A DNA stretch of 64,000 nucleotides from Alligator mississippiensis (lineage: Eukaryota > Chordata > Crocodylia > Alligatoridae): assembly GCF_030867095.1 (NCBI RefSeq), contig NC_081829.1:87050261-87114260 (forward strand). The letters run 5' to 3'. The position numbers and the translations under genes are program-made. Shown one piece after another: positions 6,683 to 37,100 of this stretch; within the stretch, counting starts at the first letter, position 1; each line of letters begins with the position of its first letter. The notes beneath the pieces were generated by a model. The model was not told the origin of the DNA. It searched no databases and saw only the letters and a program-made list of their open reading frames with translations.

Positions 6683-9600
6683 GAAAATTTAAGTTGTCTA
6701 AAATAGCTATGATGAAATAAATAAAAAGAAAATAGCAGCAATTCAGATGCCACCATTACAGTAGAGTAACTAGGAGTGGATGAGAGGGGCACCAACCCCT
6801 GGGTGCTGACTTAGGAGGAGCGCCAAAATCTTCCTCAAACTGACATTACAGTCTACACCACACTGCTACTGATTTACAAACAAGAGCCAGGGCATCCAGA
6901 GCATGTGCAGGCAGCACCAGCAGCAACTGGAGACTCATTACAACTCCTGTGCCTCTCCTACAGGGTTTGCCCAGGGTATAAACTCTGCTTGTTATACTAC
7001 TGCATCACTAAAACTATTCAGGAGTCAAAAAATTATACCTGCAAGTGCCAGCTATATAAAGCACCTTATGAAAAAAAATGATTATATCTTGACATCATTT
7101 TCTATTTCAATTAAGCTATACTTCTGTGCTTCTGGAAATCACATTATTATTATTCTCGGATAGCATAGGTTCAGGACTTTATTCCTTAAACCATGAGAAA
7201 TCCACATCTTGTAGACCCTGCAGCATCACAGTTATTCCAGATATATATTTTACAATGTATTACAGTCAATTCATAAGCAATCATAATTCATAACCCAGAC
7301 TTTTCCAAAAGACAGATTCAGGAATTGAAAATACCTACCAACATCCCACATATTTTACAAAATAAAAGCTTTATGACTTTATGGAACCTGGAAATTTTTC
7401 CTTTGCTCAGTCTACCTCAACAATGGAACAGAAAAAGATCTTCTTCCAGATCTCACAGAGTGAAAAGACCTGCGTCCACACTGCATTGATTGAGTTTTAT
7501 CTATTTCACATATTAAAGACTTAACAAAACCTTAAAAGCTCTGAAACTTCAAAATACTGCAGAAATTTGATTGTTCTCACTAGCCTAAGAAAATCCTAAC
7601 TTTTCTTCCCACAGAAGGATTTCTTGAAGGTGCTTTATATTGTGTAAGCAAAACCTTTTTGTTATTGAAAAAAAAAAAATCAAGGGAAGACATGGAATAT
7701 TGTTACTTTTTTTTTTTTAATTAAGGGACAGAATACTCTGCCAGCCAGGACACTTGGACTTTAACCCTGGTCTCACATGCTTACTGACTAGCCAAGGGCT
7801 GGGATACCCCCTAATAGATCCTAAAGCAATTACATCTGATCCCACACTCCTGACTGACTGTTGTTCGTTAGGCAAGAGAGGATCAGGCTACAATATCTCA
7901 ACCTCACATGTTCTTTCCTTTGCATGGAAATTGATGTCTATTAGCTGAAGCTCAAAAATCAAAGACTGTGTATTTGTTGTAGCATGAATTGCGACTAAAC
8001 AAGCCAAAAACATGGGTATTGAGAACCATTTCAGTAATTTTTTTAGTCCATAAGGGGAACCATTTAAGAAGCAAAAGTAGAGAAAGCAACTCTACAATTA
8101 TAATGACTTGATGTGTTCTATATAGCATCTAAATAACTGATAAGCAATTGTGTGGCTAAGCAGTAGTTTCAAGTCTGGTTTTTCATTTTATTCTGCTACA
8201 CTTACCAAAAAAAAAGGAAAAAAAGAAAGAAAAAAATAAGTACAGTTGATCGGCTACGACATTTCAGCAAAACAGACCAGCACTGACATTAGGCCAGTGC
8301 AGAATGCCCGTCAGCAATCATTTATAGTGGCTATTTGATACTCTGAGTACCAGAAGCATTCTATTATAAAAGCCTATTATTAGGATTGTACAAGCTGCAC
8401 TTCAGGCATGTGGAATACTCCTGAACATTCAGATACTTTCCCTGAGTACTGAAACCCCTGAGCTCTTACTAAACTGGGAGAGCATCAGCATCTCTGGATT
8501 TTTATTGGTAACTGTAAGCATGAGGAATTAGAAATTTTTTTCTAGACTTTCCAGAAAGTAAGTTTTTTCTTTGTTTTTTAATATTTTCATATTCCTAATG
8601 GTCACTAACTGAAAATGAGATCAAAGCAATTGCCACTGAACACAAGTGTGATTTCACTGAGCCACAACCAAGAGAGAAAAATAAGCTCCCCGTTTTATTG
8701 ATTTCTGCAGCTGTTACTGTCTCGGTTGCTTTAAGTCCAACAATTAGCACAAAAGACCCAAAACAAAAAGGCAGAAAGCTAAACAATATGGTGCCTGACT
8801 GGAGTCCAAGCTCTACCTCATACCTCGTGCATAGCAGGAGAAATTCTCAGACTGAGGACACTCAACTGGAAAACTTAATTCTTAGATATGTTCTGTACTA
8901 GAGATAATCTTTATACACAATGTGCGCATCTACACATGCACATTTACTGCGCAGTAACCTAAATTACTGTGCAGTATGGGCACGCAACTACACATGTACA
9001 CCAGTACTGCACAATAAATATAGTGACTTATGCCGACTTGGGTATAAATTTGATACCTGCATCATGCACACATGTAGACACCTTACTATGCAGTAACACT
9101 GCGTATGTGGCCTGACTTCAGTCCACACACACTGTTACTGTGCTGTAATGCCTGCCGTGTACATGCCGGCCTAAACCCTCTAACTGCACAGTAATTTACT
9201 GTGCAGTAAATTTAACGCACAGTAAATGCACATGTAGACACACCCAATATAGAGTGTATTTTATAGTTTCTTTTTGAAGGGATCTAAATTTTCCCAGGAG
9301 TCTAATTTATGCTGCAATTCTCAAAGCTCTGTAGTGTTACTAGCCAAGTTAGTCTACTGAATAAAAAAAATACATTAAATGGTCAAGTATAAAACTTTTA
9401 TACAATAGCTTGAGTTCAATGTTTTACAGTTTACTCCAGCAGAGTACTTACAGCATTTCACATTTAAGATTTTATGCATTTGCCCAGGCAGGGGACCTTT
9501 TTAAAAGGAAAGTCATTCAGCTTTCCCCAACTCCCCAGCAAACACGCACTTTAACAGTGGGTGGAATATCACTATAGCTATAACTACAATTTGTACACTG

Positions 9601-25100: not shown

Positions 25101-28100
25101 AGCAGCACTTTGAACTAGGGACAGAGCAGCCCTGGGCTGGCAGAAGGGTGAGGGGGTCAGCCCCGAGCTCCGGACATTAGCAGCAGGCAGTGGAGGAGTT
25201 GGCCGGAGCACGAGAGTGTGGAGCCATGTAGGTGACCCCGAGCCTGCTGCCAGCCCAGGGCTGCTCCATCCCAACTGGAAGTGCTGCTGCTCCAGTCACT
25301 GTTCACACATACATTGCAGTGCAGTAAATGACTGTCCCATAAGATAGTACTGTCCTCAACAGTACTATATTAAGGAGGAGTTAATTTACTGCACCCTAAT
25401 ACCAGTGCTCGTGTAGACAGTAGTGCTTTACTGTGGAGCTACTTAGTTAACTACACAGTAAAAACTCACGTGTAGATGCACCCGGTGAGTGGTAATAAGA
25501 ACCCAACATAAATACCTTATGTGAACATTTACCTGTTCAGCTGCTCTGTCTTTTACAAAATTAGCAATTTTCTTTCTTGGTCCAAGAGGTATTTCCATTT
25601 CCTTCAGGTCATCAACTGTACACATCAGCTAAAATAAATGACACCATATTTTACAAAAAAATACAACTTAAAAATGAGTTAAGAAATCTAAGAAAGAAGG
25701 ATTATTTTACAATGTTACATGACTCTAAAACAGGGGCGGGCAATTATATTGGGCGGAGGGCCGCTTACTGAGTTTTGGCAAGCCATTGAGGGCTGCATGA
25801 CAGGCAGCCAGGGGCAGATATATATTAATTTTCTAAATTTTTTAGGGGTTCCGCAGGCTGGATAGAATGGCCTGGCAGGCCACATCCGGCTCATGGGCTA
25901 CATTTGGCCCACCTCTGCTCTAAAAAAATCAAGCATATATATAAGATACTTAAATACGTGCAAAAATCGGACAACAAAATCTACCCAGCATAAGAAGTCC
26001 TGGAGCCATAAAATATATTTCATCTTAATGTCATGTCTCATTAAAGTTGGGATTTTTTGCCTATAAGTTAACTATTTCCATGACATGAAACTCTAAAGTA
26101 AACATCTGTCCATCCTACAATTATGGTTGAAAATACTGGTTGTACCAGAGATTCCATATCAATTCTCTCTTTTTCAAATATACTGATGTATTCGGTAAGA
26201 CTGAGCATTTCCAGAGTCTTCTGCAAGGTTGGAACTTCATCATCCATGCTCGGTTCATAGGACTCATCACTAGAGGGAGTAACTGAAGTACCCAATGAAC
26301 TGGTATCTTCTGTTATCTTAAGACAAGATCAAAGGAGCATAATCAGGTTGTCAGACAGAAGGAATGAAAAACAGTACTGTTAACATCTAAAACTGTTAAT
26401 CATCACATGTGAAGTTTTAATGGCACATACAAACAACAAACTTTTCAGCTAATATTGAACTAAGCTAAATAACAACTACTAAATCTGACAATGTTTTTTA
26501 GATATCCATGATGTACACAAGTGCACTCCCTCCAAGGTAAAATTGTGTGCGTTTAGGGGGGCAGCAGCAAACTGTTGTTTGATTGTTTCATCAATTTCAA
26601 ATATGAGAAATGAAACAAGATATGTGCATCTTTCATCACTTTTATACAACAACAGTGAGGAAAGATACACATATCTTTACCTTTCTTCTACAGATCAGGG
26701 AACAGACTTGGCGATTCTTTGTCCTACACATGGAAGGGCCAATATTGATTAACAATGTCTGCAACCCAGATTGATACTCAAAACCAGTAGGTACAATGGC
26801 CCCTACTGAGACTCTGGCCTCTTTAAGCTCATACATTCACTCTTCCTTTTAACTTACAGACCATAGAAACACAAATCATCTACATAATTAGTTTGTTAAA
26901 ACTTACTATTGCATCATGTGTAGCATTTAACTGGCCAGAACAGTTCTGACATGAGAAACACCCACTAAAAACAAGATTAATCTACCTAAAAGCAGACATG
27001 CAAAAAGTACCTGCTTATCAGAAACAGCACCATCTTTCACAACCCCATTTACAGCAGAGAGATAGCCAGAGCTTCCTGATGAAGCCAAGTCTTTCTGGTT
27101 GGACAGTATGTCAAACAGAATTAAAGAACCTGGAAATATAAAATAAGAAACAAAACTGAGTAAAGTATTCAGGTTTTTCCTGATCCAGTAAGGTGGGTTT
27201 TTTGGGTTATTTTTAACTAGAAAAAGTATTCCTATGAAATAAAGGCTTTGAGGTTCAGATATTAAAAATTTACATACAGTTGAGAATTCTTGGCACAGAG
27301 GATGTGATTTATTGACTTCTTTGCTTAAGTTTATATCACTTGAATAAGTAAAATAGCCAAAAACACATTTTTTCACCAGCCCGGGCTATGGCCACTTTCT
27401 AGAACCCGAAGCTAGAGGTTCTCACTGCCAGAGCTGCATATTGCTCATTAGACAAGCAAGTATTATTTGTCTTTTACCAAAGGGGATGCTGATGGAAATT
27501 ATAATTAATGCAGGCCACACATATCAAGTCACTTTTTTACCCTGGATTAGAATCCAAATTTTGTGGCATTCAGTATCATGTTCCAACCCCTAGATCATAC
27601 TGCCTCAAAATTTTAAGTAGAATAAACTAAACTACTTATCAGCCTTTTGCATTTAGAGCTAGCAACATCCAGGGCACTATTACCATCTATCTACCAGATG
27701 AGCCTTTCCCTACTTTTAATAGACTTTGCATTTTTCTTGTCCCAGGAATGCTATTTTATTTCCATCAGATATATAAATGAGTTACCTAAACCAGCGTTTC
27801 TTAACCCATGGGCCGCGACCCAAAAGTGAGTTACAAGAATATATAAAAGGGTCACAAACAAACTTAAAAAGTGGATCAACAAACTTTTAAAATGGATTCT
27901 GTGGGTTTTCCCTTGCAGGTTGACAGAGTTCCAGCCTGCAAGGGCCCCCCCCCCACACACTCCCACTCCCTGCCCCACACACAGGGGGGTCTGGGGGTGG
28001 GGAACAGTGGGTCAAGAATGAGGGGCACTGGGTTGGGACTGGCCATCCATGTTTACAAATGAGTCCTGGTATAAAAAGTTTGAGAACTACTGACCTAAAC

Positions 28101-31100
28101 TGTGCCCAGCAACAGAGACTCCGCCTTTAAAATCTGGGTTGCGACTCATGAAAAGTGAATACAGGTGATTCATTTCCATTCCAACTTTATCCACAATTGT
28201 CTGACAGTAGGTGGGGCTGTTGTAAAACAGTATATCAAGCAAGGTCTCATTGGTGAAGTGGCGCAGACGTCCAATGCTTGGCAAAGTGATTTTCTTAATA
28301 TTCCTGGTAATTCAAAAATGTTGGAGATAAAACAACTTAAAAGAAATCTAAAGAAAATATTGGAAGTTCCACTTTCTGTAATTGTGAATATTTAAATATC
28401 TGACAATCTATTCTCAGCAGCCTAAACAGGAATTATGTTCTCCCTCTGCTTCAAACTAAATTTTTTTGCCTCATTATGTACTCATACATTAGCATCATTG
28501 CCCTTTTTAATTGCCAGTATACATTTAAATTAAGAAACTAATACAATCACTTAAGTTGTTATTTCTAGCCTTAACGGAATGACTAAGATGTTACTTCACT
28601 GGAGTCCTGTCCTTTTCCCATGACAGGGACAGGGTGGATGGGGAGAAACAACATATAACAACAGGAAGGGAAGGAACCACAGCTCTTTGACAAACCAGTA
28701 ATGGATAAGAAGGGGAAAGAACACAGCAAAGAGGTAGGGACAGACAAGAAGATAGGATCTGAGAGAGAAACTACAAAAGAAAAAGTTAACATGAAAAAAT
28801 ATCTGAAAAGATGATGCACACTAGTCCCCTTTAACTGCATTCAACTGTAGAAAGGGTACGTAACTGAACTGTAAAAATACTTCCAGTAGTTTTTACGATT
28901 ATTACATGAGACACTGTTTCCCTTTTTAGTGTTGTACTAGAGCAGGGATGGGCAAAATGCGGCCCGCGGGCTGGATGTGGCCCGCCAGGCCATTCTATCC
29001 GGCTCATGGGACCCCTAAAAAATTTAGAAAATGAATATATATCTGCCCCTGGCTGCCTGTCATGCAGCCCTCAATGGCTTGCCAAAACTCAGTAAGCGGC
29101 CCTCCACCCAACATAATTGCCCACCCCTGTACTAGAGCCTACTGCCAGTATGCAGCTTCAGTAGAGTTAAGATAACCATAGCTGACTCCATCCAGGCAAG
29201 AAGGGGATACTGTTTCTAAAGTTGTGCCTGGATCAAAGGAGGCCTAAAAACCTCCAAGGTAGTTTGGGTAAGCCAAAAAGCTGACAAGCTGTGAAGATAC
29301 ACAGAGACGAGCTGTTCCTGCCACAGCTAGAGTTAGATAGAATAAGCATGTAGGTTTCTTATTACAAATCCAGTTCTCTAAGCACTGTGTACCTTTTGGC
29401 TAAATAAGCCATACTGTCTTTTGGAGAAGATTTGCTTGTTCAAAGTTTGTTTGTTGTTACCGCCTGCTATCACAGGCTCACAACTGGGAAATCCTTGCAG
29501 GGTCTAATTTCAGTTGAACCTACTGAATTAGCCACAGATGATCACAAAGAGGCTGTAACCCAGGTCTTAGTCTAGAACAAGGTTAGAGAGTTTTGACCAT
29601 TGTGGTGTTAACTGAGTTTTGACCACTGCCTTTCTGGCTTTTACAACACATATTCTATCAAAGGGTGGCCGACTTAAGAAAATGTGTGTTTCAATTAGGT
29701 CTATGGAAGAAACATTCAAAAACAAAAATTGTTAAAAGGAGATAAAGCACTATTCTAGATATTAGAAATGATAAAAGACAAGCAATTCTTCTTGTATTTA
29801 AGGAAAAGCACTTTGAACTAAGATATACAGACGTACTAACATGTACTATACTGTACACATATTCAAATAAAAGTACTGAAGAGAGAAATACAATTTTAAT
29901 GGAAAGTGAAAAATTAAGATTAATTTTTAAAAGAAACAATTTTAATATACTGTTTGCTTGTATCTTGAAGGAAAGAAATCCTGTTTGTGAAATTCTTAAA
30001 TAATATTTAACCTATGAAAAAAATCAGAAAAAAATCACTGTATGTTCAACTTCACTCTGTTCTTCAATATTCAGATTCATAATCTGGCTCTTTTTCACCT
30101 ACTTTGGCAACTGGCCTTTTATAGTACATTACAATACCGTTTACTTTTCTACTTTGCCTTTAAGATGTGAGCAACTTTTCCTTTCCCTCTGTTTAACTCT
30201 ACAAAGTAAGAATTAGGCAGTTTAAAATGTAAAGACACAGTTGCATATTACTAAATGTTGCTTGGTATACAGACCTGTCTACACCTGTCGCATCCCCATG
30301 TAGAGCACTATGCCAGTGAACTGGGAGAAATTCAACTCTGCTCACTTGAAATTCCTCTACAGGCTTCTTAAAATGGGTCTGCAACAGCTTCAGAGATACT
30401 GTCCTGAAGTCATCAACTTAAGGGAGAGTGATAGGAAAAAGTAATGGAAATATGTTATTCAAATAACAAACATAACAAGCGATATTCAAATATGTTTTTC
30501 AACTACATTGAACATTTACATCCTCTTTGTCCATTTACACGTTAAAAAACCTACTTAAACAGGTATAAGAAAAAGGTCAGAAAATTGAAGTATCCCAGTC
30601 AAAAGTGTATATGGCTTCTCCCAAAACAAACTTCATGGTCAAATATGCTCTTATAGGGTTTGCTTGGGATTTGTTTTTGTTTAGAATAAATACAAGTTTG
30701 CACATGTCAAGTTACACCTGAATTTATAGAAATCTGTGAGCTCAGTGCTGAGGAACTAATATCAACAACTAAAAACTCAATAATTTGTCAGTAAACTTTT
30801 TTAAATAGTTAACACTGCAAAAAATTCTCTTTACTGACTCCTTTAAGGTGGTATAGAATGCTTTCATGCTATTTATGAAATATTATTTGAAGCTATTCAT
30901 GAAAGAAGGCAACCCAAGATTAAAGAATTAAAAGTATGATAAACAACTTACCACATTCAACAATGCTTCTAAATCTTAAATCACACACAGGACCTATCCC
31001 ATGGACCATAAACACTAAATGGTCAATCTGAGACATCTCTCCTATAGAAAGAGAAAATACCAGTACATTGATACTGTTAATTTATCTCAAGGATGCAATT

Positions 31101-34100: not shown

Positions 34101-37100
34101 CAATAGCAATCTATACCCTCGGTTAACATTCAGGTTATGTTTGAATATACATACACACTCGCTCAACTACATTTTATCTTGAAAGAAACAAAAACAGAAT
34201 AATTAACATTACCTTAGGATTGTGCATAATAATCGTTTCCCCGTTAGGAAATTCAAGTCGCCGGTGCCACTGATTCGTAGTTAGCGCTTTTTTATATTCT
34301 GCCTGTGAGAGTACAGTTATGAAAAATTAGTGTCTCTTTTTAGACTAGTATGTAACACGTCAGGCCAAAGTTATCCTATACAGGCAACCCCCGCTTAATG
34401 CTGTTTCACTATAGCACTCATTTAGAATTGATACCTGCTTCCACTAAGCACTCAGTGAGTTTCATTATAACGCTCGCGGTCGCCGTCTTGGGTCATTAAA
34501 AACACTTGCAGTCGCCATCTTGGGTCGTCAAAAACTTTTGGTTTCACTTAACGCTTGGTTTTTAAGAACCAATTAAAACTGCTAAGCGGGGGTTGCCTCT
34601 ACTAGGAAACAGCTTGCATAGCTTTATTCATAAGAAAGAAAATGACTGGTATATACAGTACTACAGAGTGGCTCCAGTTATTACATGAGAAACTGCACAA
34701 GCATATTTTAAGCCAGAGGTGTGAAACTCACCCCAGACCCCACGTCAGATCCAGACTGTCAGACCAACAGTAACTATAGCGGAGCTGTGTTGGGGTGGCA
34801 GCACGAAGCTGAGGCCCTGCCACCAATGGGACCCTGGACTGCAATGGACACAGCCAGAATTCTGCAGCAGTCTACTCCCCGCAACTCCTGGCAGCCCGTT
34901 GGACTACTGGCACGCTGCATGGAACAGCTCTGCAAGCTGAATCCAGCCTGCAGGCCATATGCTTGACACTCTTGTTTTAAACCAATAGCACAAGGGGTCA
35001 GAGGCAAATAAATCAATAACACTCCATTCAATGCATTACAAGAACATCTGATGAAAAATAGTCCATTAAAAAAAATCAGAACTGTACAAAATGGCCACAT
35101 CAACCTTATTTAGGTTTATTTAAAAGTAATACTGACCTCTAGCTTCTCACTGAAGTCTTCCTCATATGGAACGAATCTGCTATCTTTGTCTCCTTTATAA
35201 AACCACGTACATCGTCTCACTTCTGAGGGCTCTTCTTCCCAATACACAGCTTTCCTCATTCTGTCATACAGGTATACATCATAGCGCCCCCCATCCGTGC
35301 TCAAAATAACACTCTCAGGATCTGGTTGGACTACAATACAAAATTCATGCTCTGTTACAACATGCTTTTGCATTAACCAATTAAGTGAGTAACCTAAGCT
35401 ATGAAAGGTGCTCAAAACCTTACAGCTCCACACTTTTACTTGAAGAATGTATGTGTTTTCACAGTGATAACTTGGAGGAATTTGCTTTTGCTGATGGAGA
35501 CAGAATACTACTCAAACACTTGTCTTGGAAAAAGTTCCTTTTGACTATTGTTTCATGCCACTTTCCCCATCAACTCCACTCTGTTCCATTATGAAATTCA
35601 TCATACCGAGAGCAGAATTAAAAAAACATCATGATGACCCATGTGGTCAACTGCCTCAAAGACAGGGTTTCCAAACAGCGGCCCGACATCATACTGAAAA
35701 GAGTGGAGTCTGTAAGTGGGACAGCACCACAAGTGCCAAAGAACCAAAATAAGAAAACTAACACAGACCACAAAAGGAAAGAAGCAGACATGAGAAGAAA
35801 CACTAAGAGAACCTGTCATTAGAAGAGCAGCAAGTTGGCAAGTTTTTGTAGCATCTCACCCCTGAGTTTCCTAGGAAATCTTTGTACTTGCTGTACTTTG
35901 TATACAAACCAAACATTTTTGCATACAACTCTAAGATTCAGTCCCCTTACATACTACAGAATCAAAGTCCTGAAAGTTTACTTTCACTGCTTGATTGTAT
36001 GGGGGAGACTTAATTCCACTCATGGCAGCACTTAGCAGAACCATTCCACATGCACACAAACTCTCATAGTTAATAACTTCCATGATGTCATTAATAACCA
36101 TTTTGCAAGGACAAAGAATCAACTGAAATAGCAGCTTTCTAAATGATTTTTATTGCTTGTGGAACACTTTACTATAATTCCAACTACAGATTTTTCCCAT
36201 TAGATCTTCAAGAATAATTACATTACAAAACTTGACCAGTTTTTTACTTTCAGTACCTGATAACATTGATTAGAAAAAAAATAGCTATAAACAGGCATAA
36301 CATTAGAACCACCAGCTGCTTTGAAAGAACAGCTATGTTTGCCGTGATCAACTCAACAAATTGACACTAGGCCTGCTCACAAGAATCAAGATGCAAGGCA
36401 AAACACAGGGCACATGATCCCAAACAGGTGAAGGTATGGGCCTGTGTTATTGTGGGATGGTAAGATATACATTAGGTCTGTAAATTCTGACAGCAACGGT
36501 GCCAAGCAAACAACATTCTAGACCAGGCATTGGAAACTTGTGGCCTGTGGGCTAGATCTAGCTTGCCAAGCAACAGTATCCAGCCTGCAAAGCTGGGATG
36601 CTGGTGGCAGTGCAGCAGGGAGGTGAAGTGGCAATCCACTTTCAGGCTTAGCTTTGTTAATTCAGCTTGCTGCTCCCAAAAATTTTCTGATCTCTGTTCC
36701 AGACATTTAGACAAGCATGCCTCAGAATCAGTAAAGGGTGGCACCAGCTTCCTAGTGGCAAAGCAGTACTCATTCTCACGTCATTTCTTCTCCAACTTCA
36801 CAGCACTTCAGCATCATTATTCACATTCAAGGGCAAGATTAGCAAAATAAACATAAAGAAAATACAAATAGATGTCACGTTTCTAAACGTACCAGAGTTA
36901 TAGACTTCCTCCAGCTTTACAGAATCTAAAACACTGAATGGCATCCATATCTGTTTGTTTTCCACTTCCCTGCAGTAAAACCAATGGGGCTGAACTGGTT
37001 CATACTGGTTCTGCAGTAAAACAGGTGGCGCCTGCACCAAGGGACCTGCAGGTCTCGAAGTTTGTAGAGGTTGGGAGGCTGACGGCAGTACTGACTGTGA

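Follow-up and report, generated by a model that had tools for sequence, protein, structure and literature searches.

A hAT transposon insertion with its target-site duplication across the exon 9 splice donor of SEC23IP in the alligator genome

SEC23IP and the insertion at the end of exon 9

The stretch of Alligator mississippiensis DNA analysed here (the window, 64 kb) carries on its minus strand a gene of 18 coding exons, in order and stop-free. These exons were located by tblastn using a human SEC23IP bait sequence, on which the assignment partly depends, and the gene is probably SEC23IP. The predicted protein contains a DDHD domain according to Pfam (193.3 bits, E 1.1e-56, profile positions 1-244 of 258); the piece translated from exons 9 and 10 has no Pfam match. 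Exon 9 (28095..28303, minus strand, 209 nt), placed by tblastn and in-frame spliced translation, encodes the GHSLG serine-hydrolase motif and ends in ...GGGCACAGTTTAG. Exon 10 (27011..27129, minus strand) was delimited by spliced translation, with TTTCCAG|GTTC as its acceptor and CAG|GTACTT as its donor. By the same approach, intron 9 in its present definition extends from 27130 to 28094 on the minus strand and measures 965 nt, or 656 nt once the element described below and one copy of its target-site duplication (TSD) are subtracted. ARAGORN detected no tRNA in the 64-kb window. A search of the alligator's own genome with the exon as query revealed neither a retrocopy nor a second copy of SEC23IP, the three matches among six candidates being the locus itself, a 73%-identical paralogue and a 51%-identical match. 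A scan of viral contigs for exon 9 returned 14 pattern matches, none of which was confirmed.

The octamer ACCTAAAC (plus strand) occurs in two copies, at 27784..27791 and 28093..28100, which are identical at 8/8 positions, lie 309 bp apart and enclose a 301-bp non-autonomous hAT element (27792..28092, minus strand) delimited from its tips, its copies in the genome and their consensus. The ends of the element read CAGTAGTTCTCAAAC on the minus strand and CAGCGTTTCTTAACC on the plus strand; both start with CAG, and the terminal inverted repeat of this copy is imperfect, with an ungapped match at 9 of the first 14 positions. The original prediction had placed a 301-bp element with hAT ends between 8-bp duplications and the right duplication over the exon 9/intron 9 boundary. 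Both statements hold: the proximal copy (28093-28100) encompasses the exon end at 28095, covering on the minus strand the last bases of exon 9 (GTTTAG) together with the donor GT. A hAT insertion with an 8-bp TSD across the exon 9/intron 9 boundary of SEC23IP is thus confirmed.

On the minus strand the sequence at 28095 runs ...GGGCACAGTTTAG|GTCAGTAGTTCTCAAACTT..., and 309 bp further on it runs ...AAGAAACGCTG|GTTTAGGTAACTCATTTATATA. The proximal donor, GTCAGT (28089..28094, minus strand), is therefore composite, GT belonging to the TSD and CAGT, at +3 to +6, to the transposon tip, so that the frame-keeping junction reads GTTTAG|GT + CAGT. The distal TSD (27784..27791) includes, by sequence comparison, what was probably the donor before the insertion, read on the minus strand as GTTTAG|GTAACT. 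Its claimed role as a marker of the empty site is supported by the 8/8 TSD and the distal TTTAG|GTAACT, the empty site being deduced from this copy only.

Among the three versions of the exon 8-9-10 join that were translated, only the one using the proximal donor is open, and it joins exon 9 in frame to exon 10 (27129-27011). Use of the distal donor, which makes exon 9 518 nt long, or retention of the intron leads to GHSLGQ followed by a stop, in agreement with the original prediction of a protein cut short right behind GHSLG when the distal copy is used. SEC23IP probably still splices normally, by way of four transposon letters.

The hAT family, its target preference and its age

The search of the alligator's own genome covered 2.35 Gb in 195 contigs. 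The best 40 of 4006 candidates scored consist of this locus and 39 other copies, 73-80% identical. In their alignment, a TSD-like octamer is followed at one and the same position by CAGT in 33 of the 39 other copies; the remaining six start with CAGC (three copies), CAGG, TAGT and CAAT (one each). The CAGT next to the SEC23IP donor GT is consequently transposon sequence, in line with the prediction of a donor made of TSD TTTAG|GT and transposon CAGT, and the number of copies sharing this start rules out a chance resemblance to an element. In the family consensus the outer tip CAGTGGTTCTCAACC comes straight after the TSD-like octamer and the opposite end reads GGTTGAGAAACGCTG; the tip of the SEC23IP copy, CAGTAG, departs from the consensus at its fifth base. 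The 8-bp TSD, the short CAG...CTG ends and a dispersed multicopy family with a central-TA target preference were all found, and judged from its ends, TSD and copies the element is a non-autonomous member of the hAT superfamily.

The element also contains a hairpin (window 27910-27944, CCCTTGCAGGTTG / CAGCCTGCAAGGG) whose 13-nt arms are 92% complementary; it is present in the family consensus too.

The octamers preceding the tip are TCTAGA-like with a TAG core, with T at position 4 in 88/98, A at position 5 in 89/98 and G at position 6 in 60/98. These 98 octamers combine the 39 similarity-chosen copies with 59 tips read from a position-ordered sample of 60 places, one of which (L132) was dropped as it had no tip at the expected place; 18 of the tips in the position-ordered sample belong to the family of the SEC23IP element. 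TAGGT stands directly before the tip in 0/59 cases of the position-ordered sample and in 2/39 of the similarity-chosen copies. A target ending in TAGGT followed by a CAGT tip gives the junction TAG|GTCAGT. The exact junction TAGGTCAGTRGTTCTCAA occurs at 168 places genome-wide, against 0 for a reversed-pattern control, and the tip CAGTRGTTCTCAANC, a pattern that is not nested with TAGGTCAGTRGTTCTCAA, at 8,273 against 21 for its control. Reading of the junctions revealed that several related hAT subfamilies carry the common tip. A crude search at 30 of the 168 places (L052-L081) found a matching second octamer in only 6/30, and the 168 should therefore be read as tip junctions and not as 168 proven whole insertions; among them, the exon-end position was checked for the window junction alone.

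Three of these places, L071-L073 (C1:230827847, 230835461 and 230843075), have identical junctions and flanks at a spacing of exactly 7,614 bp. They count as one repeated unit, probably a longer sequence that carries a hAT copy and is arrayed in tandem.

Masking of two low-complexity stretches leaves 214 sites, 22 of which differ between the SEC23IP copy and the consensus (K2P 0.113). Of the similarity-chosen copies, whose median is 0.100, 11/39 diverged at least as much. The position-ordered members have a median K2P of 0.118 (n=11), obtained from 18 matches of which 14 span the element, L087, L090 and L129 being dropped as matched in two pieces. An unmasked K2P of 0.19 for the SEC23IP copy was set aside since the G-rich middle was misaligned. 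For a crocodilian, the divergence would place the insertion at roughly 80-90 million years. The alligator-crocodile split dates near 80-90 million years as well, and the insertion is consequently likely, but not sure, to be present in all crocodilians.

Is a landing on a donor to be expected by chance? Counting both strands, the window holds 84 instances of TAGGT, equivalent to ~3.1 million in the whole genome. A genome holds ~200,000 donors, of which ~6% are of the TAG|GT type. By this back-of-envelope estimate, 168 insertions into TAGGT would hit ~0.65 real donors, or about one, so that a single case fits blind landing if the insertion was harmless and targeting of exons is not needed.

The probable former and present donors and other splicing routes

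At the corresponding codon position, a paralogous exon on another contig, 73% identical and presumably that of DDHD2, has a boundary that resembles a donor, ...GGTCACAGCTTAG|GTAAGG (AGCTTAG|GTAAGG), as read off the sequence alone. This shared boundary, which in the paralogue is free of the hAT tip, makes it probable that intron 9 predates the element. The 51%-identical genome match covers positions 28-75 of the 79 in the query, and with them the junction at position 68, and may lack an intron there, in which case paralogues need not all carry it; the motif sought in this match was not found.

The paralogue donor has G at +5, a base for which donors usually show a strong preference. Considering this preference and the ~11% divergence, the ancestral donor may with about equal likelihood have been GTAACT itself or a GTAAGT that later decayed. 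The earlier claim of a C-to-G change at +5 is unsafe, as the distal copy has been unconstrained since the insertion, and hence free to drift for perhaps 80-90 million years.

In ViennaRNA duplexes with U1, the proximal donor reaches -8.0 kcal/mol, the same donor with the consensus tip -7.5 and the distal (or empty) site -6.4. The proximal value is the middle of those for the gene's donors (range -4.4 to -11.0, for 16 of 17 donors; exon 11 has none above threshold, and the coding sequence ends with exon 18). Donors at the gene boundaries were picked with a table of base frequencies; neither this table nor U1 pairing, the two measures of donor strength used, is a trained model. If the earlier donor was GTAACT, the insertion probably kept or slightly improved it. 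The composition of the new donor does not stand out either. Exon 4 ends in GAG|GTCAGT (35131..35139, minus strand, last exon base 35137), found by donor scan, with the same hexamer and no hAT tip after the donor, and the exon 8 donor, CAG|GTCTGT (minus strand, window 30275), also has C at +3 with no hAT tip following. C at +3 is rare among vertebrate donors; with two such donors elsewhere in the gene it is nothing special within SEC23IP, where GTCAGT looks ordinary. The weight that the original prediction put on the donor change as something unusual is thus not supported, the U1 pairing being mid-range as well, and the earlier interpretation as a whole is partly supported.

Several other routes of splicing were weighed. 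The distal copy could compete with the proximal donor, a sizeable share of transcripts then carrying the 518-nt exon 9 with its early stop and SEC23IP output being lowered by nonsense-mediated decay. The distal TTTAG|GTAACT is indeed intact, with all 8/8 TSD bases and A at +3 and +4, and on the frequency table the two sites score nearly the same (3.09 for the proximal and about 3.05, computed by hand, for the distal, a gap of <0.1 bit). Yet the distal site pairs less well with U1 (-6.4 vs -8.0), is 309 bp more distant from the acceptor and requires a 518-nt exon, and its stop would be a fixed cost that selection would be expected to oppose. We consider such competition improbable.

Still less probable is a recursive route, in which the proximal GT would be spliced to the distal TTTAG, regenerating TTTAG|GTAACT for a second step to exon 10, with the TSD acting as a zero-length exon. 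The duplication makes the distal copy AG|GT by construction, so that the geometry is right, and a search of the open-access literature found no report combining recursive splicing with a transposable element and a target site duplication. As an acceptor, however, the distal copy scores very poorly: its pyrimidine fraction at -20 to -5 is 0.38, compared with 0.56-0.88 in 17 gene rows, and its score of -3.33 from base frequencies is the lowest of 18 rows, in a table where the exon 16 row is misplaced and the value for exon 13 (-3.16) is provisional. Finally, that the element simply broke the donor and left a decaying or silent allele, as insertions at splice sites are usually harmful, is hardly credible given 18 coding exons without stops, donor candidates at 16/17 internal boundaries (none for exon 11), a DDHD domain of 193.3 bits over positions 1-244 of 258, no second SEC23IP copy among the three matches of six candidates and ~10-11% element divergence, which is time enough for decay to show.

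A probable donor takeover and its relation to known systems

We favour, at a rough probability of 0.86, a near-neutral takeover of the existing SEC23IP exon 9 donor by the hAT insertion. A hAT transposase preferring TCTAGA-like octamers with a TAG core would have inserted the element into GTTTAGGT, an octamer comprising the final six bases of exon 9 and the first two (GT) of intron 9. Duplication of these 8 bp would then have preserved the exon end and GT on the exon side, while the transposon CAGT took the place of the old +3 to +6. As TAG|GTCAGT is predicted to pair well with U1, the boundary and frame of exon 9 would have been kept and the intron merely lengthened by 309 bp, so that the insertion may have been tolerated and gone to fixation. 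A cryptic site, the old donor GTTTAG|GTAACT, would persist 309 bp further downstream; transcripts spliced there would encode GHSLGQ-stop and would presumably be degraded by nonsense-mediated decay.

This takeover would offer a clean example, in a vertebrate, of a transposon that substitutes for the inner half of a donor already in place and leaves the predicted protein unchanged. It would be tolerable as the duplication preserves both GT and the end of the exon, the tip providing A, G and T at +4, +5 and +6. The case further suggests a testable rule for other hAT-captured donors, namely a TAG-core target plus a CAGT tip, giving the junction TAG|GTCAGTRGTTCTCA. An extension of this idea, which we regard as unlikely, is that the family is pre-adapted to regenerate donors: insertion into TAG|GT would always rebuild TAG|GTCAGT at nearly no cost, and intron 9 would be one of a series in the lineage, some perhaps removed recursively.

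No paper on the SEC23IP donor case was found in the open-access literature searched, which does not by itself prove that it is unpublished. The nearest relatives are found in other settings. Like maize Ac/Ds, the SEC23IP element is a hAT transposon whose end furnishes a splice donor; Ds ends are described as furnishing donors in this way (PMC5432752). The donors of the maize elements, Ds1 among them, lead to alternative (exonized) transcripts, whereas in SEC23IP the TSD retains GT together with the end of the exon, the replacement is confined to +3 to +6 and no change of the protein is predicted. In Alu-type and other vertebrate exonization a transposable element likewise gives bases to a functional splice site, but a new and usually alternative exon is added, while the old SEC23IP exon sequence is unchanged.

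The TSD of TcBuster is 8 bp long with a central TA, nnnTAnnn (PMC3499496). TcBuster/hAT-Buster elements and the SEC23IP-element family have these two features in common, to which the latter adds a flanking TCTAGA-like preference. Fungal stwintrons, in which one intron is nested in the donor of another (PMC12403724), share the nested layout. They split the donor between bases 1 and 2 and show no TSD, and a two-step removal at SEC23IP is unsupported by the acceptor.

Among introners, some are described that bring one splice site with them and take the second from the TSD, and others that draw both wholly or partly on the TSD or exon (PMC9860276); for vertebrates, the same source sees no pattern of introner gain. 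A splice site divided between TSD and element is likewise what SEC23IP presents at the level of sequence. Introners create a new intron, whereas the SEC23IP intron, judging from the paralogue boundary, probably existed already. Set against maize Ds and introners, the SEC23IP case, as its junctions read, is one in which an existing donor is partly overwritten and nothing new is made.
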